Assembly (NCBI GenBank): GCA_009602725.1 | Contig: WELB01000120.1 | Coordinates: 198,863 to 234,358 of the forward strand | Origin: Spirogloea muscicola | Lineage: Eukaryota; Streptophyta; Zygnematophyceae; Spirogloeales; Spirogloeaceae | Direction of reading: 5' to 3' | Length of the DNA stretch: 35,496 nt | Shown here: positions 14,057-34,889 of the stretch, in pieces | How the letters are laid out: each line of letters begins with the position of its first letter | How positions within the stretch are numbered: position 1 is the first letter of the stretch | Position numbers and translations under genes: made by a program | Notes under the pieces: generated by a model | Database searches by the model: none | The model's input: only the letters and a program-made list of their open reading frames with translations | Told to the model about the DNA's origin: nothing

Positions 14057-14399
14057 GCCGATGATCCTTGGTGGTCAGGATCGACACTGGTTTGCAGGTA
14101 GCGGCGGCTGTGGCAGAAGAAATAAGGAAAGGGGTTCTTCCAACGGGGCGAAGCAAGCGATGGGCGAGGGCTGTGGGAAGAAAGGAAATGCGGCTGCTGA
14201 TATCGAAGGATCGGCTGTAAGAGAAGCGCGGCCAGATCGGCTGTAAACTGCGCCGAGCTTTGGCGGCGGCCTCCGGCTTCCGTCAGGGCGACGTCTTTCC
14301 ACCAGCTAGCTACTCGGATCTGCATCTCCTGTCTAGAGGTTACTGAGCGTTCCCTGGCTGATAGTCTTAGTCCTAGTCGTTCGCACTCAAGCTCCCTCA

Positions 14400-14645
14400 G
14401 ACCTTGTCCATTCTTTTGGGCTGGCCTTTCCCAGCCACCAGTCAATCTGGCCGCGCTTCCTTCTGCCAGCGAGATGCATACAGGTGTATCATGACGGAGC
14501 CAAAGTGAGGAGAGACGAGCAGTGGCTCTCCCAAAGAAAGGATGGAAAGAAAGGGGGCGAGGGCTGGGGAAAAGAAGAATCATTCAGTCCAGTAAGAGGG
14601 CGACGGGTGTGATCGGCCAGCCACAGGAAAAAAGAATTGAGAAAG
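14400..14645 (-). repeat. Dispersed repeat family, copy 1
   Basis: It contains ttttgggctggcc followed by ttcccagcc at 14415-14438. On the minus strand it has ttctttttt, tgtggctggcc, cgccctcttactgga and gagagccact. The same blocks recur in the same order near 18.5, 33.8 and 34.4 kb. It lies upstream of CMC2. Confidence 0.65.
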
Positions 14646-14882
14646 GTTGAAGGGGCCAGAAAAGTGTGGCCCGTCGTCTGGAAGCTTCTGTTCACCCCGC
14701 TAGTCACGAACGGCCAACCCCTGACGCCGTCTTCGCCGCCGCCGCGGCCGCCCGAGACCGGCGAGGCAGTGCTGCGGTGGGCGGGCCTCCAAAGACGGCC
14801 TCCAAGGGGCTCGCCTCTTGGCCTCCCTGCCATCTGCCAGACGTCGTAGCTCGTCTGGCCGGGCGCTCGTGCCGGCAGGCCG

Positions 14883-15653
14883 ATGCATCCGCCCCTCGCG
14901 CTGCACAAGCACCCCCGCTGCGCCGACGTGAGGCCTCCCGCGAGCCCGCCGCTGTGACGCCCAAGTCCTGAACAAGCTCACGAGTCAGCTCGCGATCTTG
15001 AAGGTTTTTCAGAAAAAGACTACGGTTTACTTCCGAGACAGTGTGCATAACCAATTTCGCCTTTTAAAGTTACGTACATCTCGATCTGAACCACTTCTGC
15101 TGGCCGTAACTCCCACCGCCTCGAGTTGCGCGCAGATCATCCTCAAGTTCAAGGCGTGCCACGAGGAGCACCCGTACGCCAAGTTCTTCGGCGCCTGCAA
15201 TGACTTCAAGGCTGCGCTCGACCGCTGCTTCCGGGAAGAGGTGCTTCCGCCAGCCCTCTTTGGGCAGCGCACTGTGCTTCCATTGTCCGCTTATGACCTA
15301 GTGCCTCCCTGAGGCGACTGCTTGGGCAGCAGGATACCTAACAAGTCTGGGCGCTGATTTAGTCAAGTTGAGAGGTCTAGCAGTGCTGCCAAGCGAACAG
15401 GTTGCTGCTGCGCGCTGTCAGTTGTCAGCGTCTCTTCCCGGCCAGCTCTTGTGCTGAGGTTATGCTTGCGTGATTTCACTAGATGCCCTCTGAGGTGCTC
15501 TACTGAGCTATATTGTTTGTTCATCAAGTGGTGCAGAAGGCTGAGAATCGGAAGGTGAACTTTGAGAACAGCAAGCGGTCGCAGGAGAGGCTGCGGGCCG
15601 GGAAGGTCGCCAGGGCTACTGCCACTGTGACGCCGTCAAGCGGTGCCGGTTAG
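14883..15653 (+). CDS. CMC2: COX assembly mitochondrial protein 2 (CMC2-like twin CX9C protein), 3 exons, 88 aa
   Basis: Small mitochondrial intermembrane-space protein that helps cytochrome c oxidase biogenesis. Exons 14883-14927, 15136-15240 and 15537-15653 join in phase 0 and give 88 residues. It starts MHPPLALHKHPRCAD, the typical CMC2 opening with an early Cys. Exon 2 reads ILKFKACHEEHPYAKFFGAC followed by NDFKAALDRCFREE. Together these give a twin CX9C layout: the exon 1 Cys with KAC, and FGAC with DRC, the family FFG-C-N-D signature. The basic C-terminal tail (KAENRKVNFENSKR) also matches the family. The stop is TAG. Only 14 bp separate it from the next possible start codon, that of HAL3 on the same strand. 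Confidence 0.87.
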
Positions 15654-15667
15654 GTGCAGCCCCGCTT

Positions 15668-17000
15668 TTGAGCTGCCAAGCTCAGCATGATTGCGGTGAA
15701 CACAAGAGGGCTTCAGCTGCTCAGTCCCTCCAGATGGGGTCTCCGTCCTCCCAGCTTGTGACCAGCCAGGCGCCGCCCGACTCGCCTGGCCTAGTGAAAG
15801 CCTTCAGCAGGCGGCCCCGCATTCTGCTGGCAGCCTCCGGCAGCGTGGCCGCCATCAAGTTCCCCATTCTTGCAGAGAGTCTCAGCGAGTGGGCTGACGT
15901 GAAGGCGGTGGTAACCGAGGCCGCCCTTCACTTTGTGGACAAGCAGGCAGTGCCCTGCAATGTGCCGCTTCTGACGGGCGCTGAGGAGTGGACCAGCTGG
16001 AAGCGGGTTGGCGATGACGTGCTGCACATAGAACTTCGCAGATGGGCAGATGCGCTGGTTGTGGCACCAACCTCGGCAAACACGCTCGCAAAGGTTGGTG
16101 CTACTTGACAGTACACTTGACAGTGTCAGTCCCAGTCGCCTCACTGAAAAGATAGGTCTTACAAGGTCATACTCACTGTTTGAAGCGCAAGTTGAAGGGT
16201 TTCAATACTTCTGTTGCCTGGAAGTAGAGATGCTGTAATTCAGGAGACGGGCAGTGCTGTGACTTGGTAGCTACAAAGTTGCAGTTGGGTATGATGACAG
16301 AACCATCCAAACAGTTATCCCTGGCTGAATAAAGCGTGTGGATACAACTATTACTACGGTTCTGACCCAATCATGTAGGTCGAATCAAGCGTAGATTGCA
16401 TTTTGATATGTATGCTTGGCAGCAAATGAGATGGCGCCATTCAGCAATTGTATTGTAACCTTTTATATTGGATGAAAGAGAGCAGTCGGCAGGGGGTAGT
16501 CATAGGCACACAGCTAGTCACAGCACAGTGGTTGTCTGTGACTGCAGGTTGCTGGAGGCATCTGCGACAACCTGCTTACTTGCATTGTCAGAGCTTGGGA
16601 TTTCAAAAAGCCCATGTTTTTGGCTCCTGCAATGAACACATTTATGTGGAATAGCCCCTTCACAGCGCGGCATCTGGCTGGTGAGAAGCAGAAGGTGCAT
16701 CATCTGAAGCATAACATGAAAATTCTAGCTTTTGATCACAAGCAGACTGGTGTGATTTTAACCTCACATCATTTAACACCCAAAAGTCGACTGTTACATG
16801 GTTGTCTGTTGTGTCCTGGAACAGCTGTTCAAGAGCTGGGTGTCAAGGTCATCTCGCCCATCAGCAAGAAGCTTGCGTGCGGTGATGTTGGCAATGGCGC
16901 AATGGCGGAGCCTGCTACTATTGAAGCTATTTTGCAAACAGAGTTGATTGCGATTGACCTAAAGACAACCGGCAAAAGCCCATCAGCTACCAGCAGTTAG
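15668..17000 (+). CDS. HAL3: HAL3-type flavoprotein / phosphopantothenoylcysteine decarboxylase, 3 exons
   Basis: FMN-dependent decarboxylation of 4'-phosphopantothenoylcysteine to 4'-phosphopantetheine in CoA synthesis. Plant HAL3 is also linked to salt tolerance. Exons 15668-16093, 16548-16680, 16825-17000. Motifs: RILLAASGSVAAIK (flavoprotein N-terminus), VLHIELRRWADALVVAPTSA with the catalytic His, NTLAK joined to VAGGICDNLLTCIVRAWDF, the PXMNXXMW motif as PAMNTFMW, and the substrate clamp LACGDVGNGAMAEP. The start may be ATG 15668 (244 aa) or ATG 15734 (222 aa); the second lies nearer the usual length. The first intron has a gttggt donor. The stop is TAG, and TGTAA (polyadenylation-like) follows at about 17017. 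The whole gene is crowded behind CMC2 with little room for its own promoter. Confidence 0.95.
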
Positions 17001-17968
17001 TAACAATTTTAGACGTGTAATGTACAGCCAGTCACAGGCCTGGATTTTTGCAGCTAAGTTCCACCCCACGTGGGGGTGGAACTTAGACCCCCACGCCATG
17101 TCGATAGGGCCTATTTATCTGTGATAGAGGTTGCGAGCATCATGCCTCAACAACGTCAATCTGTGTATAGGCCTTCTGATAATGCATTGAGTAGTGACTA
17201 TATAATGAAGGGCAGTTTTACGAATTAGCCTCTGACAAGGACTTACAGTAAGGTTGAATGTATCTCCACGATTGATCACTGGCTAAACTACTAGGTCATC
17301 TTGTGCTTTGTAGGAATGTGCAGGGTATGGTCCTCTTTCATGACATTAGTATCTAGCAGGAGCATCAGAAGCACGGGTCTGGAGCTGCCCTCTACGCCCA
17401 CGGCATACATTCAACAGCTTCTTGTGTTTAACACGCAGGATTGCAGGCCCCTTCTCCGATCTCTCTTCTCCTATCGATGCTGTTGGGACTGGACTGGCTA
17501 GACATGAATGACGAGCTTTGTGCTCGGTAATATGGCTTCGACCTATATGTATTGTGGCACAATTGAGCTCAGATCAGAATAATCTTTGATTGTATGTAAA
17601 TTGGCTGCGAGCTACACCCCATCTCTCTCATGCCGATGTCCATCCTGGACAGAGAAAGCGCACACACTAGTTGACATACTACAGCTCCCACCTCATTGTA
17701 CACGTCAGCGCGCACATCCTGGAGCATTGCCACCGAGGACTAGCGCCTGCAAGCGCACAGACTGCACAGTCGGCATGGCCACTTGTACTTTGCCTAGGCG
17801 TGTCACAATAACGTTGACCTCAGAGCTAGCTGCATCGTCTCGAGTCGATGCGGATTTCATCACGGCAAGCAAGTCCCACAAGCACCACATGTGCCAGCCT
17901 TGCTGACGAGGGCCGCAGGAGGGCACTTTGGGCGAGCCTGTGGAAGCATGCCCACCTCGTGAATCAGA
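17001..17968. other. Intergenic region between convergent HAL3 and the ATP synthase f-like gene
   Basis: About 970 bp. It holds the putative HAL3 polyadenylation signal near 17017 and the 33-bp palindrome at 17054-17086. The remainder shows no exon-like segment with family motifs. Confidence 0.6.
17054..17086. repeat. 33-bp palindrome with CACGTG centre
   Basis: Arms ctaagttccacccc and ggggtggaacttag (14 bp, perfect) surround acgtg, so the centre contains the E-box/G-box CACGTG. It lies 54 bp after the HAL3 stop. It could be a 3' processing or termination hairpin, a factor site, or a remnant of a mobile element. Confidence 0.9.
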
Positions 17969-18241
17969 TCAGTGGTGGCCGCCGCCGTGCTTCTTGGCCT
18001 CCTCGTGGGCCATGTGGCGGCTTTCGGCGGGCCAGCCGACGGCGTAGGCGAGGACGAAGACGGCGGCGACGAGCTGGTTGAGCGGCGCGATGCTGTCCTT
18101 CTTGATGTGCGCGTCGTGGTACTGCCGCACCCAGCCGTCGAAGCCCGCTGTCACCTTCTCCGGGCTCAGCGACGACCGCAGGTAGGCCGGCAGCTCCCGC
18201 GCCTTGAGCTTGGACACCTCCGCCAGCATCTTGTGCGACAT
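17969..18241 (-). CDS. Probable mitochondrial F1Fo ATP synthase subunit f-like protein, 90 aa
   Basis: Small single-span inner-membrane protein. Reading from ATG 18241 gives 90 residues: an amphipathic start MSHKMLAEVSKLKARELPAY, then GFDGWVRQYHDAHIKKDSIA, then a hydrophobic segment PLNQLVAAVFVLAYAVGW, and a charged His/Lys tail HEEAKKHGGGHH before TGA. This order (KL-x-ELP, a YY/H-rich linker with K-x-SI, one membrane span, then E-x-x-H and KH tail) follows ATP synthase subunit f of animals and fungi, which is about 90 residues. The frame is open to an upstream Met at 18349 with Pro/Arg-rich sequence, but that part looks like GC-rich 5' UTR. No intron is needed. It could be another small respiratory-chain subunit. 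It diverges from PSMA6. Confidence 0.65.
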   Translation of the reverse strand: MSHKMLAEVSKLKARELPAYLRSSLSPEKVTAGFDGWVRQYHDAHIKKDSIAPLNQLVAAVFVLAYAVGWPAESRHMAHEEAKKHGGGHH

Positions 18242-19167
18242 GGCGCCCCGCTGGGCCCCGCGCCTGGGCTCCCGCCGAGGGCCCTGCGGCGGCGGCGGAG
18301 CCTGGGCAGGGCGCGGTGATGCGTTGTAGTTTGGAAGGTGATTATCCACTTGTGGACTCGTCGGTGCATCACTTTAACGTGCAGCTAGTCTGTCGGATTT
18401 GAGGCTCCTCACTCGTCAGTACTGAGTGGTCCATCCTCGCCCCGTTCTGACTTCGCATCTTCAGGCCCCTTTGTAGCTACTTAGCGATTCAGGCCCCCCA
18501 GTCATTGTGGCCCCTTCGAACCTTATTCAATTCTTTTCGGGCTGGCTGTTCACAGCCCTTTGCTTTTGTCCATTCTTTTTTGGCTGGCTTCTGCCAGCCC
18601 CTCTCTTCTATGGGCGAGCTCATCTTCTTTGCCCCCATTGGGACAGCCACTTCTTCTTTCGAGTCTTATACGGGGGCTGTGAAAAGCCAGCGTGCCGAAA
18701 GGCGCCAGAAAGCACGCAGTTACGCAGGGGTTAGGTGTCATGTCTGATTATACGTCGCCTGCGCAGGGGCTGACTTATTTACTCTGACGGCGCCAACTGA
18801 CCACACAATGGGCCACATTGGCGAGAACAGCGCTTTACGCTGGCGCCATGTAAACGGTGAAGCCCGAGCCGTTTGGGACGCCGTCAGTGGGCCCCCGTTA
18901 GGAAGCCCCGGGGCAGCCATAAACCCTTGACCTCACCTCCGCCCGGCGCTCGCCGCCGCAAGACGCGCCGGGTGTCGCGGGCCGCCACCGCCGTCGCCGC
19001 CGCCGCCGCCGCAGCCGCCGGGATTGGCTTGTACGGCCAGGGCTTAGACTTTGGGGCAGTGCCGGCTGCGGAGACCCGTCGTCCGGGCCCTTCGCCGTGA
19101 AGGCGGCACCCTGCCGTCGTTGCGTCGCGGGATCCACGCCGCCGCCGCCGCCGCCGCCGCCGCCGCG
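18242..19167. promoter_or_regulatory. Divergent promoter region between the ATP synthase f-like gene and PSMA6
   Basis: About 930 bp holding both promoters, one long copy of the dispersed repeat (18457-18735), and a GCC triplet tract running into the PSMA6 start (19137-19167). I do not see a clear TATA box. Confidence 0.55.
18457..18735 (+). repeat. Dispersed repeat family, copy 2 (longest)
   Basis: Ordered blocks: caggcccctttgtagct, attcttttcgggctggct with ttcacagcc, a second attcttttttggctggct, tgcccccattggga, gccacttcttcttt, and ggcgccagaaagcac. Reading the minus strand of 34700-34830 gives the same first blocks in the same order, and 33770-33950 gives the last ones, so it behaves as one dispersed element of roughly 250 bp. 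Confidence 0.75.
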
Positions 19168-19366
19168 ATGAGCCGCGGCAGCGGCGCCGGGTATGACCGG
19201 CACATCACCATCTTCTCCCCCGAGGGCAAGCTCTTCCAAGTCGGTGAGCGCCGCCGCCAGCGCTGCCGCCGCCATCGCCACCGCCGCCGCTGCCGCCGCC
19301 GTCGCCGCCGCCGCCGCCNGGGCCCTTCGCCGTGAAGGCGGCACCCTGCCGTCGTTGCGTCGCGGG

Positions 19367-19367
<1 letters not shown>
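19085..19367. repeat. 48-bp direct repeat flanking an assembly gap
   Basis: An identical 48-bp block starting gggcccttcgccgtgaaggc occurs at 19085-19132 and 19320-19367. Each is followed by a CCG triplet tract, and the second begins right after the N at 19319. This is typical of two contig ends that overlap but were not merged, or of a real tandem duplication that broke assembly. Confidence 0.85.
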
Positions 19368-19407
<40 letters not shown>

Positions 19408-21606
19408 GGCCGTCGATAACTGCGGGGACCCCTGGCGGGCGCTGCTGCTGCTGGCTGGAATTTGCCACCGGCCTGCCCATTGACAATTGGGGTTTTGGGT
19501 TTGCTCCTGCTCGCTCGCTGGCGCTGAGTTGCGGCGGTGGCGGCGGCGGCGCAGGACAAGCTCCTGGATCCGGCGAGCGTCACGCACCTCTTCGTTGTGA
19601 CGCGGTTCATCGGCCTGCTGGCGACGGGCATGACCGGTGCGCGCCCCTTTGCCTAAAGCCCTTGAAGCCCTTTTGCTTCCTGAGATCAAGGCTCGAGCCC
19701 TCGCCTCCTCCTCTCATCCCGAGTCGTCCGCTTTGCCCAGCCACAGCCCTAAACCCGAAACCCTTAACACCTATACCATAAACCCTTAAACCCTGAACCT
19801 TGAACCCTGAATCCTAACCCTTTTCTGCACCTCAAGGGGGAGGGAGGGGTAGAGAAGGTATAGGATTCACGGATTGAAAGCCTGGGGTTAAGGTTTAGGA
19901 TATAAGGGTTTGGTCTTTAGGTTTGGGCTTTAGTCGCCGACTGCGACTTGGCAGCCCTCTGACGCGGCGCGATGGGCGCTCGCTGGGCAGCCGACGCGCG
20001 GTCTCTGGTGCAGAAGGCGCGCAGCGAGGCGGCCGAGTTCAGGTTCAAGTTTGGGTACGAGATCCCGGTCGACTACCTCGCCAAGAGGTGCGGCCGTCGT
20101 CTGACACTGCTTGTGTAACCGCGGCGAGCTTCACATAGCCTGCTTAGCTCAGTTAGTAGCTTCAGGTACGTTGGACTAAGCTTGTCTTGGCTGAAGTCAA
20201 GGTCACAGCTTGACTTTAGAGCTTACAGTGTACCAGTCAGGTCCTCGGTCCTCATCTTCCATGCCTGTCAGCCGCCCAGCCGCTCACCGTGCCGCCTCCA
20301 TGGCCATGGGGTCAAGGGTGCAGACTGGCGGATCAGGCGCAGGTGTACACGCAACATGCGTACATGCGTCCGCTGGGCGTCGGTAAGCAGCCGGCCCCTG
20401 CTGTGAGAGCTACGCACTCTCTGTGCGAGCCAGTAGGCCTGCTCTTCTTGCACGTCCCCGCCCTTTCTCGGACGCGGCAGCTGACGGCTTTGCCTTGGCT
20501 TGCAGCCGCCATCATCTGTGGGATCGATGAGGAGATGGGTCCGCAGCTGTACAAGTGCGACCCCGCTGGCTACTTTGTCGGTTACAAGGTGCGCATTCAG
20601 TGCCGCTGAGTCACGTGCAGTTCAAAGCATTGTCTAGTTCATTTATTACAATTCACCTCTCTGCGCATTGCAAGCTGACAGGAGGCATTCAGCATCAGGC
20701 TGAAGCTGCATATCTCTCATGACTCATGACTCTTGCTGCAACAGGCCACATGCGCAGGCGCCAAGGAGCAGGAGGCCACCAACTTTCTGGAGAAGAAAGT
20801 GAAGGGCACCCCTCAGTTCTCCTATGACGAGACTGTACAGGTCCTGCTGCCGCCGACTAGCCACATAAATTTGTCTCTATGTTCAGTATTCCTGGCCAAC
20901 AAAAATCCATAACTGCTGCTCCAGGACTTGTTTTGCAAGCAGTCCCTCTTTGTCACTGAAAGCATCACAATCCTTCAATCAGAGATTTGCAATTGTGCTG
21001 TAGCTTTACATTTAGTGCTTTGCAAGCCTCCGTCTTGCTCGCCTCTGTCCTCCAATGGGCACCGTGCTAGTAAGGGCACCTGCTTGATTGACCAGCTTCC
21101 CTGATTGACAGTGTCGTGTGTCCCCCTGGCAGACAGCAATTTCTGCGCTCCAATCAGTACTGGCCGAAGATTTCAAGGCAACAGAGATTGAGGTATCGGT
21201 TGTCCCGACACTTTGATGATCACCTTGTGCAAAATTTTGATGAGGGTAGTCTTTTAGTCATGGCAATGTTTACGGCAACATGACATGCACGTTGCACAAG
21301 AATCTGCCCGACACATCTCGCACTCAATTAGGCTCCTGGAGGCTGCCGTTGCTCAAGGCATAAGGAAGGGGTGGGGAGCGAGGTGGATGTCTAGAAGATG
21401 TCACATGTCCGACTCAGAGTCAAAAGTTGCAATGTGTGTTGGGGGTTCACATCAGTGGTCTTTGTTATCTGTTTCACTCTGTTAATTGACTGCAATCTTG
21501 TCATTGGCAGGTGGGAGTGGTAAGGAGCGAGGGGGACCGCTCCTTTCGTGTCCTGTCGCTGGACGAAGTGGAGCAGCATCTGACGGCCATCAGTGAGCGC
21601 GACTGA
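19168..21606 (+). CDS. PSMA6: 20S proteasome subunit alpha type-6; second exon missing at an assembly gap
   Basis: An outer-ring alpha subunit of the 20S proteasome, which gates substrate entry. Exons: 19168-19243 (starts [20 protein letters not shown]), 19555-19636, 19991-20087, 20334-20392, 20506-20588, 20745-20840, 21133-21192, 21511-21606. Motifs: [90 protein letters not shown]. It ends in ERD before TGA. The first exon ends in phase 1 after KLFQV and the next begins in phase 0 at DKLLDP. The segment normally reading EYA...VTQKKV is absent, and the missing length must be 2 mod 3; about 92 nt would restore the usual family size. An N at 19319 and the 48-bp duplication lie exactly there. 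The rest is intact. Confidence 0.96.
19747..19934. repeat. Degenerate telomere-type repeats in inverted arrangement
   Basis: Degenerate CCCTAAA-like units run from about 19747 to 19820 (for example aaacccttaaaccctgaac). From about 19883 to 19934 TTTAGGG-like units follow in the opposite sense (ggggttaaggtttagg, ataagggtttgg). They lie in the third PSMA6 intron of the complete gene. It may be a remnant of telomeric insertion during break repair. Confidence 0.7.
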
Positions 21607-22386
21607 TACTAGACTTAAATGCAATCCAGATTATCACCATTTGAGACACTTCTGTGCTCAGTACATAACTGGCAAGCCCACTTATAACGAATTGTGCGTC
21701 AAGGCTTAGAAGTTACATCAAGCATTTTCAATGCATGGTCACACATTAATAAATGAGTTGCCGCACATGGGCCCTGCTTAATGATCAAGACCCTGCTAAA
21801 AGTGCTCAAAATCTTAAGAATGTCTGTCAAGTATGCAGCTTCATCTGTCTTCATCTACGTGTCCCAAATTTGAAGGTCAACATGACGACCCTCCATATGA
21901 CAGCCATGACAGACATCATGAGCAGCAAATGGCGTAGCTATTATGACATCTTCATTCTCTGCTTTAGAGAGGTGGCGTGATCTGTGCCAAGACCCTCATA
22001 AAGCAGTGTGGGCTAAGACTATTCACATTGGAAAGGGTAGCCGAACGATTGTATGCTAAGATCTTCAAAGTAAGAGTGTGGTCTAGAAGTACACTTGGTA
22101 AATGGGTGCTGAACAAAGGCGTTGGCGTAAGGATGGAGGAGCAGGACTTGACAATCTGCAAAGGTTGGTCTGAGCCCATTGAGCATGCCAATGACAAGCA
22201 TAGCAAGCATCCATGAGACGATAGGGATTTGAAGGGACGCAAGCGAATCTTGCAATACAATGGAGCCGCGGGCCCTGCGGTGTGCTTGGAGTGTTCAATC
22301 AAAGCGTGGAGAGCCCTGGCTGGCCAAGGATGGCCATGGTCTATCAGCGAGACTGATTTTTGGAGGTCAGTCGAGGCAGGCTTGAC
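21607..22386. other. Intergenic region between convergent PSMA6 and NHX
   Basis: About 780 bp holding both 3' ends. An AATAAA-like string (ttaataaatgag) occurs near 21748 on the plus strand. No gene-like segment was recognised. Confidence 0.6.
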
Positions 22387-25300
22387 TCATCCAAACTCAG
22401 GCTGTCCGAGCAGCCGCTCATTTATGAGGCCGTGGTGCGTGGAGCCATCCTCGGGTAAGAGCTGCACAAAGCCCCGACCGCCGAACATGGGCCGCATGTA
22501 GCTGTCGTCAAAGCGCCGCCAGACGGAGTGCACATCTGGCGCGGGCAGCATGAGCAGCGCCGCAAGGCTGGATAGGCGCTGGGGCGGTGCGTCTGGGTCC
22601 CGTAAGCTGAGGCTGCTGGACTCATTACTTTCATGGTGCTGAGCGCTCCCCAGCAGCGGGGAATGATTCCCGTTTTGGTCTGGCATTGCCCAACACATAC
22701 ATCACACTCATGCCTTGCAACTAAGTCTATCTGGGCAAGCAGCACTTCATGGTACAAAGCAAGCAATACTGTCAGGTTCAGACATTCTACAGCTGAGCTT
22801 GCAGCTGGCCTGTCACTTGAACGCAGTGCTTGCATATCAAGCTTTCTACACAATTGTGGACTTTGTATCATCTTCTGAGAGGCGTCATATGACCAAGTTG
22901 TGTGCCATCAGAATCACACCTGGAGTAGAGCCTTGTTCTACGGAGTGCCCCTCACTATCAGAAATTCGAACATGATGCTTGTGGGGCTGCAGCGTCTTGA
23001 TAATTGGTCTTGTGAGTAGCCCAAAGACCTAACATAAGCAGATACACGACAGCATGGGAAAAGGGCTGCCTTTTTTCCCCGAAAAGCTTCCCACAAGCTC
23101 AGATCTAGGTTGATAATTTAGAGAGCGGTGTTCGATCACTTTGATCAGTAGGTGTCACGTGTGGTTTCTGTCTTACAATGGTTGTGAAGAGGACGACAAG
23201 GATGGTGGTGCAGATGATGGTCGCTTGCTCATAGTTAATGATATCCCCTTGCTGAGTAAACTGCGACCAACAACATCAAACTTAAGATGAAGTACTGAGT
23301 CAAGGTGAGCCTGTCCTAGAGCTGGCCAACAGGGCTTGCGCACAATTTTGTCCTCACAAGGTTAACTACATGTAGTCACTGCAAGACTGTATCACGCATG
23401 TCCCACAGATTGGTAAAAGTGCAAGCTTCAACATAAGTGCTGTTTGCACCTGATTGAATGCCAGGGCAATCGTCACAGCTCCTCTCATCATTCCGGCCCA
23501 CCATATCACAACCTGTATGTGACTTGTGCATTATTAGACCAGAAAACAGCAACATTCCCTACTGCTGGCTCTTGAAAAAATGAAATTTGCAGCCCTGATT
23601 GGTCTTCACTCCAGCCATTTGCGCCTAATGATTGCGCCTAATAATTGTGCCTAACAGCAACAGGGTCTTACTCACCATCTGTTTCCAGTGCAGCTTTGCT
23701 GACCGGTTGTGAGCGAAGTTGGACAGGTATGAGAGTGGAAACACAAATGCTGCCCTACCGAGGACCAGGAGCAGCAGGAGACTCACAGCCGACTTGATGG
23801 CTAATCTGGGGACAGTCAACATGTAGTTTGCCTTATGAATGTCATGGAGGCAGACAAGCTCATTATCATTCCCCCGAGTTTTTGCTTTTGTAGCCTTCTA
23901 ACTAGCAAGGCATGAAGGTCAGAGACGCAAGTGGACAACAATGTCAGTGAGAACTTGCTGAGCTTCTTGACAACGCAGAGGAGGTGCTCCGACATGTACT
24001 GCTTGAACAACTTACTGGGAATCAATGGCTCCCCACTTCTCCGGGTCTAGTGCGTCCAGGCCAACATAGAGAAATATGAAAGTTTCTGCAATGTATGACA
24101 TGGTGGCAAAAGCATGCCTGTTGCACAAGCCCCCAAGTATGTGAGCAAGTGCTCTTGGCCACACGGGTAACACACATCTACATGAATCAAGTACAAATCC
24201 AGATACCAAGCAAACATGAAATCTGCACGTACTTGCTAGTGACCCTGGAGGCCTCAGTGACATTGTGCCATGCATAGTGCGCCATCACTATCCCACAAAA
24301 GAATACTGTGAGAATCCCGCTCAATTCGAGCAGCTGTGAAAGAAGAGTTTCGAAGTCCTTGTTAAGTATACTACACTGTCATTAGCCTCAGACAGGTCAA
24401 GGTCAGATTGACTTAGAAGCAGTCATTGATAAGGTGATATTGCGCATGTGATAGATGCAGAATTATTTGATTGGTGCAACTCTATGTAAAAAGTCCTGCG
24501 AGCATAAAGAATGGCACCTGCACAAATTACCTCAGCAAACACATACGAGAGATAAGCCATGAGAGTCATTAGCGCTATTTCTCGATCAGTTGAGTGCCTG
24601 CACATGCATGACAGGAATTGCGATGCTGCAGTGACATCATTCTGATCCAAATATGCAAGCAATTAATCTCATTGGTGCAAGCCCAGAAACAACAGTAATA
24701 ACAGTTGGAAGAAGTCTGGAGGCTATATCCTTAATTCTAGCTTGGCGGATTTCTAAATGATCTCTCACCGGCCAATGTACAGCCTCTTGATTGCGTAAGC
24801 TGTCAGCAAGCCGGTCTACAAAGACAGTTTGACGCACAGTAGAAGCTATCAAGAATCGCTTAGCAACCAAGCCCAGGCCTCAGTATTACATGCTTCCACC
24901 ACCTTCAGCTATGACCGGCATGAGTGGCCAAGTTTATAAAAGTAACTGCAGCGTAAAGTGTTGTCAACGTGACCAAAAAGTCAGGGTGATTACTACCAGA
25001 TTACAAGCTCCTTCAGAGTAAAGGCAACTCATACTCACCACAATTCCAAGGGCGGTGCTAGTCAAGAAGAGGTAGGAGAAACTGGCAACGATAGAGAGGA
25101 ATTTGACAACTCCAAAGGTGTTGAAGTCATAGTTTTGAATGGCTCGGAAAAGTACAACTGATGCTGCATCATTTACCACTCCCTCTCCAAAGACCAGAGC
25201 ATATAGGAATGGAGTCTCGTTCTGGTCGAGAATCTGCGACAACAACATGTGATAAGAAAAGTCGTCTCAGAAGGATGCAGGTTAAGTGGTACAGATATAG

Positions 25301-26741
25301 TTTGTTATAGTCAGCAGCTCCCAAGACCCCATCCCTGCAGCTACAGACATCACTTGGCCCATAATAAAGAATAGAGATGTTAGCATTTCATTCAGAATAG
25401 TGAACTTGCGGTGACGACACTGTTGCACAATCTCCCCTCTGTGGTGCAATTTACATACCTGCAGGGTACAGACAGAGTCTGTGGCAGAAAAGATTGATCC
25501 AAGAGCTGCCAAGACGTTGCAAAAGACTAGTAAAGAACAGGCTCAATAGTGCTCAATACGTAGCAGGCATTGGCAACATGACATTGATAAGCCGCACTGC
25601 TATTGGTCGTCACGTCTACATTAGTATTTGCCCTTACAAGCATTTCATCAAGACTTTCCCCCACCTAAATAATCTTTGATACTGAGATCCTTGAAACCAA
25701 GCCGCGGGCAGATGTAGTGGGCCCCTGCATTTTACCAAGCCCAAAATGCACATCAGCACGGAGCCGTGAAGCATAGGTATAAGGCACAAGAATATGTGAT
25801 GCATCCATCTCCTTATCCCAACTTCACTCTATCTGCCCAGCACAGAGCCCTTGTCTACGTACAAGTGCACAAGGTTCAGGAGAATTGCAGTCCTCGGAAG
25901 GAGCTTATAAGTAGACCGAGTGGCTGTACCAAAAGCTATAACGATGAAGGAGATGAAAGTGCCTACAACTCCATACATGATGATGGTCATGAAGTTCCGG
26001 AAAAACTGCTTCTTCTTGACTTGAAAACTGCAGGTAAGACAGACGTTCTTCCACTGGCTCACGAGGACTTGTAATCACTTCACCTTGTAGTCAGCACTGT
26101 GGTATCAGCAGATGCAGTGTAATGTGTGCCTTATCCACATTCAACAATTTCAATAGCTTACCCCGCATTGAAAATAATTGGCGGCAGAAGATAGATGAAA
26201 AATAGTTCCTCATTGAAACGAAGAACATGCGAGGATGCTCCTCCGCTAAATATGAGAACACATCCACCAGACAGGAGCCCCTGTTTTGAATAGAGAAGCT
26301 GTAATTATGTCAAATGTTCCATATCCCATACCAGCAATTTTCGAAGCTCAGCATTGCTGAGCTAGCCTCAGTACAGATTTATAGGACAAACAAGTCCGGT
26401 ATGTCCTGGAATGCACTAGGGAGTACAATGACAATTATGCTAGTATTGCAACTACAAGAAAGCACACATGTAAGAAACAAATCACTATTCACATGAGTCA
26501 AGCAAGAAAGACACGAAGGCTGTTACTTTGAAACTCCACAAAAGACAGACAGATTTACAGAGCCTGGAGTAAGACATCATAGGCAGCCGCAATAGGTCTT
26601 TCGGATGTGCATCAGTGCTTCTTCAAGTATGCTTACTATTGTGATCGCAGTGATGGACTCTGATAGCCATCGGCTCTCCTCCAGTAGATGACCCACTATA
26701 ATGCAGAGGGATATGAGGGCCGTGAAGAGCGTAATGGACAT
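22387..26741 (-). CDS. NHX1: Vacuolar Na+(K+)/H+ antiporter, class I NHX type, 15 exons, 539 aa
   Basis: CPA1 family exchanger that moves Na+ or K+ into the vacuole in exchange for H+. Exons in transcript order: 26741-26637, 26280-26162, 26027-25930, 25724-25665, 25505-25459, 25233-25039, 24815-24769, 24597-24531, 24333-24233, 24117-24016, 23805-23676, 23512-23450, 23260-23177, 23028-22920, 22679-22387. Phases agree and sum to 539 codons, almost the length of plant NHX1. Motifs: GHLLEESRW, the amiloride-site FFIYLLPPIIFNAG, FQVKKKQFFRNFMTI, FSATDSVCTLQ, NETPFLYALVFGEGVVNDAA, GRHSTDREIALMTLMAYLSY, FCGIVMAHYAWHNVTEASRV, AETFIFLYVGLDAL, LGRAAFVFPLSYLSN, VVIWWAGMMRGAVTIALAFN and a C-terminal VWRRFDDSYMRPMFGGRGFV before TGA. 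The start ATG 26741 (MSITLFTAL) gives a family-like N-terminus; an upstream in-frame TGA and a possible acceptor at 26786 leave a longer form open. Confidence 0.96.
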
Positions 26742-28609
26742 GACATCAGGCGAAGACTTCCTAACATCATCACCACCACTTTGCCCTGCTGCTGCTCACG
26801 AGTCAAGAAGTGGAATGTGCACGCTCAGTTCAATCTGAGTTGCACTCCCTGCAGCTAAGCCTACCTACAGCTCCTCAAGTCAGGAACTGCCTCACAGCCT
26901 TGTAATGAAGATCATAATATTAAATAGCTGCAGGGGTACGGTGCATCACAACTGCGTTACAAAGCACCAGAAGTAAGTGCTGCCACAATTCATGTCTGCT
27001 TCTGCCAATTCTATGAAGCCCGCCAACAATCTAACTTTTCAACGCAAAGACAAATCTGCTACCGCGGAGGAAAGGCTTGAAATGGCATCTGGAGAGATAT
27101 GGAAAGACTAGAAGGCAGTGTCCCATCACCAAGTGCAGTCACAACCCACACGCTGCTGCCAGTATACGAAGCACCCGTAGCTGCAACAGCCTAGCTACTT
27201 AGAATGCCAGCTACACCTTTCCCTCAAGGGAAAACCTTGTATCAGCTGCGATCAGCTTGATCAGCTGTGTCCTACATCTTATCGGAAGATCGGTGAAGAA
27301 CTGGCTTAAGCATGAGCAGCTAGCCAGGGGATGTCTGCCTTGCCTTGTGCTAAGAGGTGGCTGAGGAACACGGCTCCGGTCCTCTTGAGCGGACCATGCC
27401 CAACGTCCATCGCATGATCAGCCATGTCTGCATGAAGAGCAACAACTTGTTAATGATAGCAGCGCCCAGAGCGTGTTGTTGCCGTCAGAAAAGCGTGCCC
27501 CAGCCCGGAGAAGCTAGCGTGCCTGCCTGTCACAGGCAAGGATTGACCAGGCCTCCACAGGTCTCCTGACTCCCTGCCAATATCGTGCCTACTCCACCCG
27601 GGTGAAGACAAGATCACGGGTCTCTCAATTACGCAGGAGTCAATGGAAGGATCCTTAAGCTGTCGTGCATGAGCCATGCTTCGCCATGCCAAGATGTACC
27701 GATAGCCAGTTCAATGCAGGCGGCCGCTAGTCTTCAATCCTGCTGACGTATCGCAAGCAGGCTCTGCAGCAGGCTGTTGCATTCTCATCCCACAATAACA
27801 AAGCCTTTCAGCAGGCAATTTTGATATGACATGGCGCTTGCACATGCAATTGTGGCTGACATCGGCAGTCTTACGAAAAGCCATATGCAGGTAAAGCGCA
27901 GATCGTTAGGCCAGCTGCGCGACGGGACGAGCACCTGAGGAGCTCTGCTTCGAGCCGCGCTCAGATTTTCAAGCCGCGCCCGCTGCCGCCGGCGGCGCGC
28001 ACGCCACTGCCTGCAGTGCGTCGGGAGGAGGTCGCAGCGCGCTGCGGCGCCATGCCATCGCAGCGACGTCGGGGCCGCGCAGCGCTTGCGGCGGCTTTGC
28101 GGCGGCGCTTCGCGGCGGAGCTGCGATGGCGGCGAGGGGCTTAGACTGGGGAGGGGGGGGGGCAGTACAAGTATTGATGAGAGGGGAGAGGCTTGGGATA
28201 ACCCCACCGGATGGGGACCGGGCGGCTGGGCAAGGGGTTTGAGCATCAGGCCGTCTCCCCACGTCGGGATAGTGGCTCTAGCGGCACTGCCAGTGGCGAT
28301 CTGACGTCGGGGGCGCCGTCGGCCGCAGCCGGGAGCCCTGACCGGACGCGGCTAACCGCGCTAACCGCCATGCAGGGCCCGGCGCCCGACGATGGCGGCG
28401 GCGGCCGGGTCGCCACCGTCGGGCGTCGTCCGCCGCCCGTGCTGGCTAAGTGTTGTCAAAGCTGGTACTATACGTGGTCAAAAGACCTGCAGACTCCGAC
28501 ACAGGAGGTACGTGCAAGCCTATACTTTGTGTAGCATGCGCCGCGCCTCTGGTAAATATCGTAATAATCCAGTAGATCAGAAGGTGAACGTTAGCACGTT
28601 TTGGTCGTG

Positions 28610-28690
28610 TTGCCAGCAAGAGAGAATGACAATTCCAAGAAAGGGAGATGGTTGTGATTGGCCCAGCTCATGCAAGAGCAGGTAATGTGA
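28610..28690 (-). repeat. Dispersed repeat family, partial copy 3
   Basis: It contains gggagatggttgtgattggc, which parallels gggcgatggctgtgattgcc near 34340, with caattcc/tcttccaa upstream in both. It is partial and weaker than the other copies. Confidence 0.45.
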
Positions 28691-28836
28691 GGACAGAGTG
28701 GGGATCATTACAGGGTGACGACGAGGTGACGAAGAGACAAAGAGAGAGCTTTTCGACATCCAAAATGAGGCCAAGTGACGCCTGCAGGCCTCTTCGCCAC
28801 TTCTCACCGTCTTCCGGCCCCCCCGGCCAGCCCAGC

Positions 28837-28837
<1 letters not shown>

Positions 28838-28876
<39 letters not shown>

Positions 28877-28997
28877 AAGGACGCTCTGCCTCTTCGCCCG
28901 TCTGTCGGGCCGCCGAGCCGAGCCGGCGGCGGCGAAGGCCAAATTGCGGCGGCGTTGCGCCTCGAGCGGAGGAATCTGCATTCAACCGCCTTCGCCA

Positions 28998-29032
<35 letters not shown>

Positions 29033-29033
29033 A
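28838..29033. repeat. Inverted pair of CCG and CGG triplet tracts
   Basis: A CCG tract of about 39 bp (28838-28876) faces a GGC/CGG tract of about 34 bp (29000-29033), 123 bp apart, in the P4H 5' region. The two tracts are mutually complementary and could pair within a transcript. Confidence 0.8.
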
Positions 29034-29140
29034 AGCCGTTCTGAGGCGGCGGAGATGGCGGGAGGGCCGTTGCGGAGCCCGGTGCGGTTGCCCGGGCGCT
29101 AGCAGCAGCCGGAACCCCCAGTCCCGGCAAAGAGGCGGCC

Positions 29141-31959
29141 ATGGCGCGCGCCAGCGGCGCGCCCGGCGCGGCCGCCATCGGCACGCGCATCGTCTTCGCC
29201 TTCCTCCTCTGCATGGCCGTCGGCATGACCTTCGGTGCGCCCGCCGGCATCTCGCTGCGGCGGCCATGGCGCGCGTGGCATCCTCCCTCCCTCGCGCCGC
29301 GCCCGTTGCTGACGGCCCGTCGTCCTCCTCGCGACGCGCGCGAGCGCCGCAGCGGCGGTCCTCCAGCTCTCGACGCTCGGGCCTTTCGAGGACAGCACTG
29401 GTGAGCCGCCTCGCCCTGGGGACTCCGCCGTGGCCATGAGCCGGTGCCACGGCCTCTGGCATTGCGCGCCGCTGATAATCCCACGGGGCCGGCTGCTGCG
29501 GCTCCCGCAGAGCTGCGGCGGGGCTACTCCTCGCGCGGCCGTGCGCTGGGGGAGAGCATCCAGTCTGTCGCCGGTGAGGAGCCCCTTGCTCCAGCTTCAA
29601 GCTCTGGGCCCTGCTAAGGCTCGGGCGTCGGCGAGTATATGACGCATGTTCGGTTCTGGAGCATCGCAGACGGCGGCATTGCTTTCAGCAAGCACGTGCC
29701 ACGCAAGAGCACCAGAGCTGCTCTTCCACTTTCAGGTCCGCTGTTCAATTTCTGCCTCCCCCCTCTCTCCTCTACCCCCTTGGGCTCTCCTTTACGCCCT
29801 TTCCGTTGGCTTTGCACTCGAGGCGCCCACGGCAGCCCCGCTTGACAAAACCCAATTCCAGTAATTTTGGCGCTTGGCTCGTCAAGGGTCTGACGATGTG
29901 TCGCCTTTGCTGCTGCAGATCTGCCCTGGTCTAATGACACCGAAGCACAGGTTCTACGGGTCGGCCTTGTGAGAACATCACGCCGACTCCTCAGGTCCTC
30001 CCCGTGCATGCTGCAATCCATGAGCCGGCAGTCTTGGCATGACCCAGCTGACTTGCCCTGCCGCGGCTCGCCGTTGCCTTTCCGAGCATGCCGCAGGTGA
30101 AGCCGGAGGTCGTGAGCTGGTCGCCGCGCGTCGTCGTCTACCACAGCTTCCTCAGCAAGACAGTGAGCTTCTCTCCGCACCATCCTGCCCTTCTCTCCTC
30201 CATCCTCCCTCTCCTCTCTTCTTTTCCGCCCCCTCTTTGTCCAACCTTCCTCCCTGGCTTCACAAAAGTGCCCCTTGCTCCACACTAAAGCCACACTTAC
30301 AATAACTGTGCAAGTGCGGCAATCATATCCTGTCCGACAGGAGTGCGAGCAGCTGCTTGGGCTAGCGCGCCCACGTCTTGAGAAGTCAACGGTCGTGGAC
30401 GTCTCCACGGGCATGGTGCACCCATCTTGCTACTTGTACATTGACAGCAGTGAGCTGGCCAACAATAGCACTTTCTCCATGATTGTTGATATCACTGGAC
30501 TTTATTGTGCACCACTACTTGATGGTCTGGTCTTGCCCATGGGCAGGGAGTGCACAGCAAGGTGCGGACAAGCTCTGGCATGTTCCTGACTGATGACGAC
30601 CGTCTTTTACCGTTCGTGCGGGTGAGCTGCCAGCTGCAGCTGTAGTAGTTGGTGGTGTTGTTGCCTTGCCCCGTGGCGAGCCACAGGGTTCTTCAGCCCC
30701 TGCTGCTGGAGGCATGCGCAGGATATCGAGAAGCGAATTGCGGCGTACTCGATGATTCCTGTGGAGAATGGCGAGCTCCTGCAGGTCCTTCGGTGAGCAA
30801 TTACATAAGACGAAACCGATTGAATGGACTTTCCCCTGCCACTAGGCGCCTGCTTTGCCGTAGCACATCTGACACTGGCCGGCACGGGCCTGCTGTGTGG
30901 CGGGGATGGCCTGCAGGTACGAGCCGGGCCAATACTATCTACCCCACCCTGACTTTTTCTCGCAGGGTGACAAGGCAAGCATGCTCGCTCATTGCATCTC
31001 CCCTCATGCTACTTGTTAAGGCAGTAGACCAGGAGGTTATGCTGAGAAGAGTATGTAAGCTCTGTGTAGTTGAGTAGTGTGTTACCAGTTCAAAGCAGAG
31101 CATGTATCACAGATTTGGTGCAGGTTTCCCCCATGATAATATGTAGACGTCTCTGTATAGCCATTTTAGAGGATGCCTGAAACTTAAAGAAGTTGAGCCA
31201 GCCACAGCACGGCGTCATTAAGTGCAGCAGCACTCAATGATCACGATTTATTATCACGTCTCTGCATTGATTGACCAGCTGGATGTGCTCGTTATGCTTG
31301 ATGTACTCACATTGTGCCTGGGGCTTGCTTGGCCGTGCAGTACAACTTGGAACGCGGCGGGCAGCGCATTGCCACGCTGCTCATGTACCTGACAGACAAC
31401 GTGGAGGGTGGCGAGACCATCTTTCCGGATGTTAGCTCCGTCATAAGGCCCACAATGACTCGCTTGCTCAAGTGCAGTGAATGCATTACAATATTGGTGT
31501 GCTTGAGCGAGGCTTTGCTGTCCTAAAGTTTGGCATGCTGCTGCGGACTGGCATGTGCTGAGGACCTGGATTGCGGCGTCATGGCAGGCTGGTGACAGAA
31601 CGCAGAAGTGCTGGTGCGGCGGGGAGCTGAAGCCAGGTGTATGCGTGAAGCCGGTGATGGGCAACGCTGTCCTCTTTTGGAGCATGGTGCGTTATCTCTC
31701 ATACACCTTCAGTGGTGCTGGCTGTGACGGCACCCCGCACGAGCAACACAGCAGCTCGCTCTTGCTTTCACCAGTAAGGTCAGTTGCCGGCATTGGGCAC
31801 TGCTAGAGGAGCTTGTAGCCTGACGTTGCATTGTTATGCCGTTTGGCACAGGGCCTGAACGGCGACGCGGATATCAAAAGCATGCACGGCGGGTGCAGCG
31901 TGATCAAGGGCGAAAAATGGTCTTCTACCAAGTGGATGCGAGAGGCCGAATTCCACTGA
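29141..31959 (+). CDS. P4H: Prolyl 4-hydroxylase (2-oxoglutarate/Fe(II) dioxygenase), 12 exons, 298 aa
   Basis: Hydroxylates proline in secreted or cell-wall proteins, in the ER/Golgi. Exons: 29141-29234, 29353-29400, 29511-29573, 29919-29968, 30097-30162, 30341-30415, 30547-30621, 30722-30792, 30917-30974, 31341-31430, 31588-31686, 31852-31959; phases agree. The N-terminus has a signal anchor (IVFAFLLCMAVGMTFAAVLQ). Catalytic domain: VVSWSPRVVVYHSFLSKTEC, KVRTSSGMFLTDDD, RYEPGQYYLPHPDFF with the Fe-binding H-x-D, GGQRIATLLMYLTDNVEGGE, a Cys-rich loop TQKCWCGGELKPGVCVKPVM, GNAVLFWS, and SMHGGCSVIKGEKWSSTKWM with the distal His and the 2-oxoglutarate-binding Lys. It ends EAEFH before TGA. Intron 9 uses a GC donor (AAG|gcaagc), and intron 10 uses gttagc. 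The length matches plant and algal P4Hs. Confidence 0.96.
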
Positions 31960-33457
31960 CAAGACGTTGGAGCCACTTTTGTGTCCTTCTGAGAGGGCTG
32001 TGAAATGAGTGCTGCAACCTGCGCCTGGGTGGCCTGAATTACGCAAGTGGGAGCAAATATGAAGCACTTGCAGGGTTCTTAAGCTATGGAGGCTTCTCGT
32101 CAGAACAAGCACAAGCTGCGGCAGCCGCAGGCAGTAGCGCTGGTGCCCTTGCAGCATCGCCGTGGCCCTCATGGCCCGCCTCCTGTCCTGCGGCTGCCTT
32201 GCTGGATTGGAGCTAAGCCATTTTTCCCCATCACCTGTCAAAAAGTGGGTAAGTCAAAAGTGGGTGTGTCAATCACGGTATCAGCCTCCATGTGCAAGCC
32301 CTTATTGACTGCTAGCTTTGAGCAAGTTCAACTCCTTGCTGTTGCCAGCTTCAATCAAGCGGCAAGTGACCGCCACCTTCCTGATAATCTCCTATTATTG
32401 ACGGATTCGGGATGTCTCTCTCTCTCTGCAATGGTAAAACAGATGCAATTTCACGCCCATTAGCTCTCGCCCACAATCCTACCGCCCGACACTTGCAGGA
32501 TAAAGCTGGAAGTGTCCTTGTTGCCCATCTGGTTGTTTTCAGATGGGATATAAACACTGTCTCCATGTTGCCAGGCGCGGAAGCTAAATAACCCCAGCAA
32601 GGTTGTCCAGAGTTTGGGATTAGGCTGTCGTCCGTACGACCTAAGGGGGTGACAGGCTACTAAGACAAGATCGGAGATACTCCAGAAATAGCAGCTGCGT
32701 ATTCATGAGAATGGCTTGGCGCTGACTGAGGGTATCCGAAACAGGGTGAAGGGGCTACCTATGCAGCAGGTGCCCTGGGTGGTCGCGCTGCCAGAGGCAG
32801 GCATTCGGAACACTCAGGCACCGCGCCAGAGTAGTGCACTTGGCTTCTTTTCGGTGTGACCACAGAATTGTCATTGAAGCGCGAGCACAGTCTCTGATTT
32901 AAATACAATCACAATCACTTGTGACATAATCAGTAGTAAATACTTTGTCCACCACAGAACTTCCCATTTGAGGAGGCCACGTCACGCACCAAACTTGGCT
33001 TCATGCGGGATGTGCTTAAAAGCCTTTCTTTAAGAAAGCTCACCAGTCGCCTGAATGAAACTGGCCCGAGGCTTCTTGTGACTTGGAAGTTTCCACACCA
33101 GGGTGATTTAAGCTAAGCTGAGGTTCCAGTCTTCTTGATAGGGAATCAAGTGTCTGAGGACGAGGCTCCCTTCCTCAACCACCTTGTCTGCAGTTGTCGG
33201 GTTTGCGTGAGCTGTTGCTGTCATTGTGCTGTCTCCAAGTTCCTGGAGGCCACTGCCCGAATCAGGGCCCAATCTCCATGAAGGACAATTTCTCACTTGT
33301 GAGCATCCATGTCGCCCCTGAAGAAGGCTGCAGATTGCCAAGCGCAGCCGGGAAGGTTGGATCTCGTTGGGACAGCACGTCTCAAGGTCGAGAGTCCTTT
33401 GGTTTTGGTGAATGGAGCAGTTGTAGGGGCCGCCAGCAGGAGTGATAGGCACGACTC
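31960..33457. other. Region downstream of P4H without a confirmed gene
   Basis: About 1.5 kb. A plus-strand segment at 32958-33102 is open and has an acceptor (accacag) and a donor (G|gtgatt); it reads NFPFEEATSRTKLGFMRD and onward. Another open segment starts at ATG 32086 and meets a gtaagt donor near 32246. Neither resembles a family I know and they were not joined. There is a short TC repeat near 32416. Confidence 0.35.
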
Positions 33458-33950
33458 TTTCCAGTAGAGGGTAACCCCCCCAGTTGTCTTGTCGCTCAGT
33501 GACGTTTAGAGAGTCCAGCCAAAGGAAGAGCTGCTTCTTTGGAATGAGGAAACGCTTAGGCTCACTACTTCGACATGCTTCGCACTGATAGCATTTCCAG
33601 CTCTTTGGAAAGTTTTCATCCTTGGCTGGGCTGGCCTTTCACAGCCACCACAACCTCGTCAATTACTAACTCCTACTTGTGATGTAGTCCCATCCTACTT
33701 AGGGCTGCTGACTAGGGGGTCACTGAGCTCTCATTGGCTGTGGCCGCTTGCACAGCTGTGTGCATTCAGCACTTTTCGGCCCTGTGAACCTTGCTCATTT
33801 TTTTCTGGCTGGCCAACCACAGTCATCGCCCCCTACTGGAAGAGACTATATGCTCTAAGAGAGCCACTTTCCCAACGAGTTGAAGTTGAACAGGGTCCAT
33901 AGGGCCAGAAGGCGCCAAAAGCACACAGGTGTGCAAGAGATACCGCGAAT
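33458..33950. repeat. Dispersed repeat family, copies 4 and 5
   Basis: Blocks: ctctttccagtagagggt (33460), ttggctgggctggcc with tttcacagccacc (33620-33645), then ctcatttttttctggctggc, cgccccctactggaagag, gagagccactttccc, and ggccagaaggcgccaaaagc (to about 33930). The last series has the same order as copy 2. Confidence 0.7.
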
Positions 33951-34299
33951 GGGAGCTTAGTAACCCGGAATCAGCAGCCGCAAGTCGGAGTAACCTGCCT
34001 GGCAGAGAGGCACCCCGACGAGACCAGAAGTAGCCAAGTGTCTTTCTCAGAAGTAGCAGTCAAAGCGCGGCCTGCTCGCAAGTGCACAGCGTGGGCATGT
34101 ATGAAATGATGGAGGGCCTGAATGGCTGAAGTACGAAGGCAAGCACCTTGAAAGATGTACACAACCTGCTGCTAAGCTGACCCGCTCAGTAACCACGAGT
34201 CAGCACATACATTTCGCTGACTGATGCCCGAATACCGGCCGGCGATTGACAAGCTCTCGTGCCACAAGCTAAGGCTCGACCAGCTTTCTGGTGCAAAGA

Positions 34300-34830
34300 C
34301 AAACCTGGTAACGTTGGAATGAGGACTCTTCCAATAGAGGGCGATGGCTGTGATTGCCAGGCCAGAACAAACAACTCTCGAATGGGCCAGATGAGCGTTG
34401 ACGGGAAAAATAGCTCCTCAGTTCGCGGCAATGGCTGTGAGAGGCCCAGTCCAAAGGAGTGTACCAGGTGAGAAGCACGCTGTCAGAAGGAAAGGTGGTG
34501 CCGCATGCGGAACACCGGGAGGCACTGCACCGTTCCAACGACGTCGAAACGGTACGCCCCAACAGCCCACGGGGTGGTCGTTCCCGGGTCGTCCCGTGGC
34601 TAGTCGTCGAAGCACTGGCGCCGTGCCACGTCGGCCGACAGCCCCACGTGGCAAGTGCCCGACAGCACGGGCGCAGATCCAATCATGTCGCATCGCATCG
34701 GCGCCATTTCCTGTAAGGAGAAGAAGTGGCACTGCCAATGGGGGCGAGGGCTGCGAAAAGCCAGCCCAAAAAGAATGCACAAAGGTCAGAGGGGCCTAAG
34801 AGCGGTGAGCAGCTACAAAGGGGCCTGAGG
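34300..34830 (-). repeat. Dispersed repeat family, copies 6 and 7
   Basis: Copy 6 (34315-34475) has tcttccaatagagggcgatg, ggctgtgattgccaggcc and ggctgtgagaggcccag. Copy 7 (34700-34830) has aagaagtggcactgccaatg, gggcgagggctgcgaaaagc, cagcccaaaaagaatg and agctacaaaggggcctgagg. Copy 7 is close to the reverse complement of the first half of copy 2. Confidence 0.75.
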
Positions 34831-34889
34831 ATGCAATGGTAAAACAGGGGGCGCCATTCCTGTAAGCGCAACGGACTGTGCAAAGCCCC

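Follow-up and report, generated by a model that had tools for sequence, protein, structure and literature searches.

Whether a set of short segments scattered over one stretch of the Spirogloea muscicola genome constitutes a genuine repeat family and, if so, of what kind, is the question raised by this locus. The window, meaning the whole 35,496-nucleotide stretch that was analysed (contig WELB01000120.1 of assembly GCA_009602725.1, positions 198,863 to 234,358), had been predicted from its letters to contain copies of a dispersed repeat with an inverted-repeat core, for which a MITE, a SINE or a mobile regulatory element was proposed.

The genes of the window are eukaryotic and intron-rich. 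Pfam searches revealed a Cmc1-like protein at 41.9 bits and a flavoprotein domain detected in two exons, one scoring 66.2 bits and the other 20.6, slightly short of the 22.7 required; a Na+/H+ exchanger, at 26.1 bits, likewise falls marginally short of its cut-off (26.2). The protein encoded at 17972-18241 has no Pfam match, and its weak PDB match is to ATP synthase subunit f (E 0.0025). For a 32-residue exon at 31344-31439 the best hits are the prolyl 4-hydroxylase entries 2jig and 3gze (E 1.2e-6), which we take to be the Chlamydomonas enzyme structures. A proteasome alpha sequence, partial and assembled by eye, has its top score (243 bits) against PDB entry 7qve, presumably the spinach proteasome, and at most 196 bits against others. 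Together these matches make a green alga the likely source. The proteasome gene also holds a 91-nt duplication (19076-19166 and 19311-19401, 93% identical, ending in CCG runs), of which one copy sits directly 5' of the first coding exon and the other in intron 1; one of them is flanked by an N, and the duplication could be an assembly artefact. The G+C content of the window is 53.7%. The observed/expected ratio of CpG is mostly 0.24-0.65 outside gene-start islands, with an excess of TpG/CpA, and 0.8-1.24 within them, a pattern that would be in keeping with a CpG-methylated genome. With a ratio of about 1 amid CpG-depleted, TpG/CpA-rich sequence, the gene-start islands resemble the CpG islands of vertebrates.

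Copies and modules of the repeat family

Comparison of the window with itself by blastn, with CG-only runs masked and matches considered up to an E value of 1, gave 17 self-matches. Eight reach at least 44 bits, six of which connect or fall within the predicted repeat places, the other two being the proteasome gene duplication (19085/19320) and a short palindrome at 17054. None of 60 local dinucleotide shuffles produced a match of at least 44 bits, the top shuffle score being 42.8. Six seed modules (a, b, c1, f, h and j) were picked by eye following the original prediction, and each was recovered by a leave-one-out profile built from the other five, with E values of 2e-9 to 6e-5; the top profile match outside any copy has an E value of 0.48. 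The six-module profile retrieved five further modules (e, c2, d, c3 and i) more weakly, at E 2e-5 to 0.053. Matches between copies display about 68-96% identity over 24-106 nt, with blast E values never below 4e-6. The self-comparison, set against the shuffles, and the leave-one-out profiles together confirm a dispersed repeat family in the window, which is real and degenerate. Its members are listed below, with E values of non-seed modules taken from the six-module profile.

Copy F, full-length foldback: 33686-34002, unstranded; arms 33693-33797 and 33887-33989, 73% identical over 105 nt, E 7.7e-9; fold z -7.9
Module f (blocks 1-3), within copy F: 33778-33844, plus strand; leave-one-out E 2.6e-8 (profile span 33779-33841)
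Copy C: 18494-18733, plus strand; aligns with 33727-33942 of copy F, E 8.2e-7; fold z -2.9
Module c1: 18509-18558, plus strand; leave-one-out E 2e-9
Module c2, in copy C: 18566-18609; E 7e-5
Module c3, inverted, in copy C: 18672-18700; E 0.026
Copy B, reverse orientation: 14459-14662, minus strand; aligns with 18504-18712 of copy C, E 4.4e-5
Module b: 14585-14657 (profile span 14595-14657), minus strand; leave-one-out E 1.2e-6
Module a, inverted relative to module b: 14390-14455 (profile span 14394-14437), plus strand; leave-one-out E 3.1e-6; 87% identical to 34749-34793
Module j: 34730-34851 (profile span 34739-34796), minus strand; leave-one-out E 1.4e-8
Module h, dyad plus CGCCCTCTATTGGAAGAG: 34326-34388 (profile span 34327-34367), minus strand; leave-one-out E 5.8e-5; 83% identical over 46 nt to 33799-33844
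Module e, mainly dyad, isolated: 33606-33657, plus strand; E 2.3e-5; 23 of 24 nt identical to 14417-14440
Module i, doubtful: 34427-34464, minus strand; E 0.053
Module d, partial and weak: 28633-28663, minus strand; E 0.0013; 86% identical over 28 nt to 34329-34356

Copies were therefore recovered near 14.5, 18.5, 33.8, 34.35 and 34.75 kb as predicted; that near 28.6 kb is weak, comprising half of the core only, and the one placed at 33.5 kb exists but sits at 33.61-33.66 kb. Profile matches on both strands bear out the predicted dual orientation, and the modules lie outside exons as far as these could be recognised by eye. The segments also have no recognisable coding capacity, in line with the prediction; none of nine open frames taken from the five clusters of modules has a Pfam match (E 0.01), and three further open frames at 33.1-35.3 kb likewise matched nothing in Pfam. 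Separately from the family, the palindrome at 17054-17086 is a near-perfect one of 33 nt (CTAAGTTCCACCCC..GGGGTGGAACTTAG), directly 3' of the flavoprotein gene.

Block order, foldback structure and decay

The unit, as delineated by eye, comprises five blocks: block 1, GGCCCCTTNGAACCTT..CATTCTTTTT; block 2, an 18-nt dyad, GGCTGGCNNTTCACAGCC, of the GGCTGG-CAGCC type; block 3, CGCCCYCTAYTGGAAGAG; block 4, GAGCCACTTCTTCTTTC; and block 5, GGCGCCAGAAAGCAC. This order agrees with the one originally described, although all five blocks are present only at 18.5 and 33.8 kb and the other copies retain fewer. In copy C two modules in tandem (c1 and c2) precede a third, inverted one (c3); block 3 of this copy is a variant, GCCCCCATTGG, located after the second module from 18631, with GCCACTT at 18646-18652 and GGCGCCAGAAAGCAC at 18701-18715. 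Downstream of module f, copy F carries GAGCCACTT at 33861-33869 and GGCGCC at 33911-33916. Only blocks 1-4 are clear in copy B, which carries GAGCCACTG (complement of 14520-14528). Module j comprises blocks 1-4 plus GGCGCC (34700-34705), with GCCACTT nearby as the complement of 34724-34730; module h has blocks 2-3 and a trace of block 1, module a blocks 1-2, module e mainly the dyad, and module d half of the dyad and part of block 3.

The alignment of copy C with copy F, and that of copy C with the reverse complement of copy B (E 2e-4 with the query reversed), have uncertain middles, with mean posterior accuracies of 0.64 and 0.49, respectively. Homology extends beyond the core between 18438-18509 and about 34778-34853, and between the right arms of F and C, with no shuffle as good among 3000 in either case; the outer part of module j is common to 18438-18559 (E 4.6e-8). 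Shared outer ends are absent, the copies terminating at differing points. No outward extension of module a to 14281 is claimed: its match to the right arm of F was equalled by 7 of 3000 shuffles and that to the left arm by 43 of 3000, which is non-significant given the 91 pairs compared. A possible partial copy, corresponding to the GCCACTT..GGCTGTGAAA part, was noticed at 31967-32026, 3' of the prolyl 4-hydroxylase stop codon; none of 3000 shuffles matched 18638-18706 as well, at a place picked by eye, and an nhmmer query with 31940-32060 found itself alone, so that an extra copy here is doubtful.

The clearest single structure in the window is copy F. An nhmmer comparison of 33680-33996 with the reverse strand of 33686-34002 (E 6e-27) revealed that it is palindromic over about 317 nt, and the RNA fold of 33680-34000 reaches -152 kcal/mol, a value equalled by none of 100 shuffles and ranking first among 470 sliding windows. 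An inverted repeat is thus present, as predicted, but rather than being limited to the 18-nt core it spans the whole of this element. Folding of 18450-18780 (z -2.9; 1 of 100 shuffles as good) and of 14380-14680 (z -3.1; 0 of 100) is weaker, and z scores of about -3 are not rare here, since 8 of the 470 windows, mainly ones unrelated to the repeat, score -3 or below. The clusters at 34300-34850 (z -1.2; 11 of 100) and 28500-28800 (z -0.4; 30 of 100) do not fold significantly. Palindromy of the whole element is therefore displayed by one copy, suggested in two clusters and without sign in the other two. The second-best fold of the window (z -4.9) lies elsewhere, at 19748-19921 in an intron of the proteasome alpha gene, where degenerate telomere-like repeats (CCCTAAA/TTTAGGG type, by eye) are arranged in inverted fashion.

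The arms of copy F align with 77 matches, 16 transitions, 10 transversions and 2 gap columns, thus differing at 26 of 103 aligned bases. When the transitions are read on plus-strand RNA, 7 lead to a G-U pair and 9 to an A-C mismatch; this lack of G-U bias reveals no visible upkeep of the hairpin as RNA and is as expected for a decaying DNA element. No CpG is common to both arms and 8 positions differ in CpG status, a small number that would fit loss of methylated CpG. Around copy F, where a target-site duplication was sought, the longest flanking match is 4 nt against a null median of 5; the ends of this copy are poorly defined, and decay could have erased an old duplication.

Promoter, RNA-gene and SINE readings

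The chief rival of a MITE-like origin is a composite promoter element, in which a dimer-binding dyad, GGCTGGC..TTCACAGCC, would be placed at fixed distance from ATTCTTTTT and CGCCCYCTAYTGGA and clustered near gene starts. The dyad is the best-kept part of the repeat, 9 of 11 blast matches between copies covering all (8) or half (1) of it, and modules occur singly (a and e), in tandem (c1-c2) and inverted, with the 18.5 kb cluster lying between two divergent genes. Mean pairwise identity in the dyad is 0.79 over nine modules, compared with 0.54 in shuffles and 0.55-0.65 in the flanks, which are at or slightly above shuffle level; however, the figure of 0.79 is biased and circular, because the modules were found by the dyad. 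Several copies do lie upstream of genes, as had been noted, though perhaps no more often than chance would place them in a single window. With CpG islands as a stand-in for gene starts, six island definitions place 2-4 of the 5 clusters and 4-9 of the 11 modules inside, at P values of 0.02 to 0.28. Three definitions include four clusters (P 0.02-0.08), but under the other three the number is two or three (P 0.12-0.28). The first definition used, in which islands make up 27% of the window, included 3 of 5 clusters and 7 of 11 modules (P 0.12-0.14); it split an island at 18.45-18.60 kb and so omitted the 18.5 kb cluster, and the wider set of definitions makes the promoter reading slightly more likely. 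As enrichment varies in this way with the definition, the proposed role as a mobile regulatory element is not established.

Two further observations count against a promoter element. The common sequence exceeds the size of a binding site (105 nt in the F arms, 105-122 nt between copy C and module j), and the 33.6-34.0 kb cluster, despite the CpG island starting at 34.3 kb, lies about 4.5 kb from the nearest recognised gene start (29.1 kb). Taken together, the evidence leaves this reading somewhat unlikely. A combined possibility appears distinctly unlikely, namely that a strongly CpG-depleted green alga co-opted a transposon-derived palindrome as a recurring promoter-proximal binding platform and preserved the spacing between the dyad and the neighbouring CCARTAGRGGGC tract close to where unrelated housekeeping genes begin. 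A CTCF-like interpretation of CCAGTAGGGGGC at 33828-33839, which agrees at every position with the vertebrate CTCF core consensus, was discarded: a single such match where 0.16 would be expected over the window is unremarkable, and no CTCF is known in green plants.

A family of hairpin RNA or microRNA-precursor-like genes would account for the strong fold of copy F, and Rfam MIR2619 matches on the minus strand with an E value of 0.00026, but its 28.4 bits fall far short of the gathering score of 113; the match is probably due to the hairpin shape. The differences between the arms carry no pairing-preserving bias, the other copies fold weakly or non-significantly, and Rfam returned nothing at the gathering threshold across the window. 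A search with relaxed threshold, confined to 33590-34900 and 18400-18850, gave MIR2619 and DnaX, both below cut-off. Hairpin RNA genes are accordingly a very improbable explanation.

The size, the dispersion and the lack of recognisable coding capacity would suit a SINE family, an explanation nevertheless close to negligible, as no pair of pol III A and B boxes, in the patterns used for the search, is spaced at 20-80 nt on either strand of the five clusters, the window contains no tRNA (ARAGORN, 0) and no Rfam match at gathering threshold, so that a tie to tRNA, 5S or 7SL RNA is not supported, neither an A-rich nor a poly-A tail was seen by eye, and one copy is palindromic. The green alga Coccomyxa subellipsoidea C-169 likewise has short dispersed repeats at a G+C content (53%) similar to that of the window, with SINEs given as 8.8% of its repeats (PMC3446292). 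The repeat described here differs from those SINEs in having neither pol III boxes nor a tail.

A possible MITE-like or foldback origin

The leading explanation, with roughly even chances of being right, is that the copies are ancient, degenerate, non-autonomous MITE-like or foldback elements of some 200-320 bp. They are scattered in both orientations and colinear, they include one full palindrome, and they have no recognisable coding capacity; the mixed orientation and the tandem and inverted modules also count for this origin. Of the two mobile-element classes originally offered, the arms of copy F favour MITE/foldback, and SINE falls away. MITEs are short non-coding elements, dispersed in both orientations, with inverted-repeat structure, all of which the present family shares, its inverted repeat being evident in copy F and weak in two clusters. 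Unlike MITEs, the copies display no common ends, and copy F has arms only 73% alike and no target-site duplication around it. Foldback elements such as Tm1 of root-knot nematodes likewise have long arms filling most of the element, with tandem and inverted units; relative to these, the copies here are shorter and far more decayed, and their arms have no regular internal repeats.

Counting against a MITE-like origin are the missing target-site duplication and common ends, the strong hairpin in just one of five clusters, the centring of conservation on the dyad and a placement that, depending on the island definition, may favour CpG islands. With the inverted repeat seen in one copy and a target-site duplication absent from the one copy tested, membership of the MITEs is not proven. 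A Helitron-type end, suggested by a short hairpin, was rejected as no CTRR was seen by eye at the set distance that such ends have from the hairpin. Core patterns, three in viral sequence and two in genome contigs, found no match in IMG/VR or GTDB genomes, as expected of viral and prokaryotic collections; one of the patterns exactly matches no copy in the window and its result carries little weight. Among the matches listed from the open-licence literature, no such element is named in titles or the starts of abstracts.

If the elements are MITE-like, a transposase encoded elsewhere in the genome would have moved them by recognising their inverted arms, and the copies in the window would now be dead and decayed. 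The best survival of the dyad GGCTGGCNNTTCACAGCC may reflect a former transposase-binding site or, more speculatively, the retention of some copies as protein-binding sites.

An old MITE-like family would be an ordinary relic, yet of a kind that standard repeat finding would miss, because blast E values between copies are no better than 4e-6; repeat finding in the Coccomyxa genome used E below 1e-15 (PMC3446292). If the dyad has been kept near gene starts, the family would offer a directly testable case in which algae have turned a mobile element to regulatory use.
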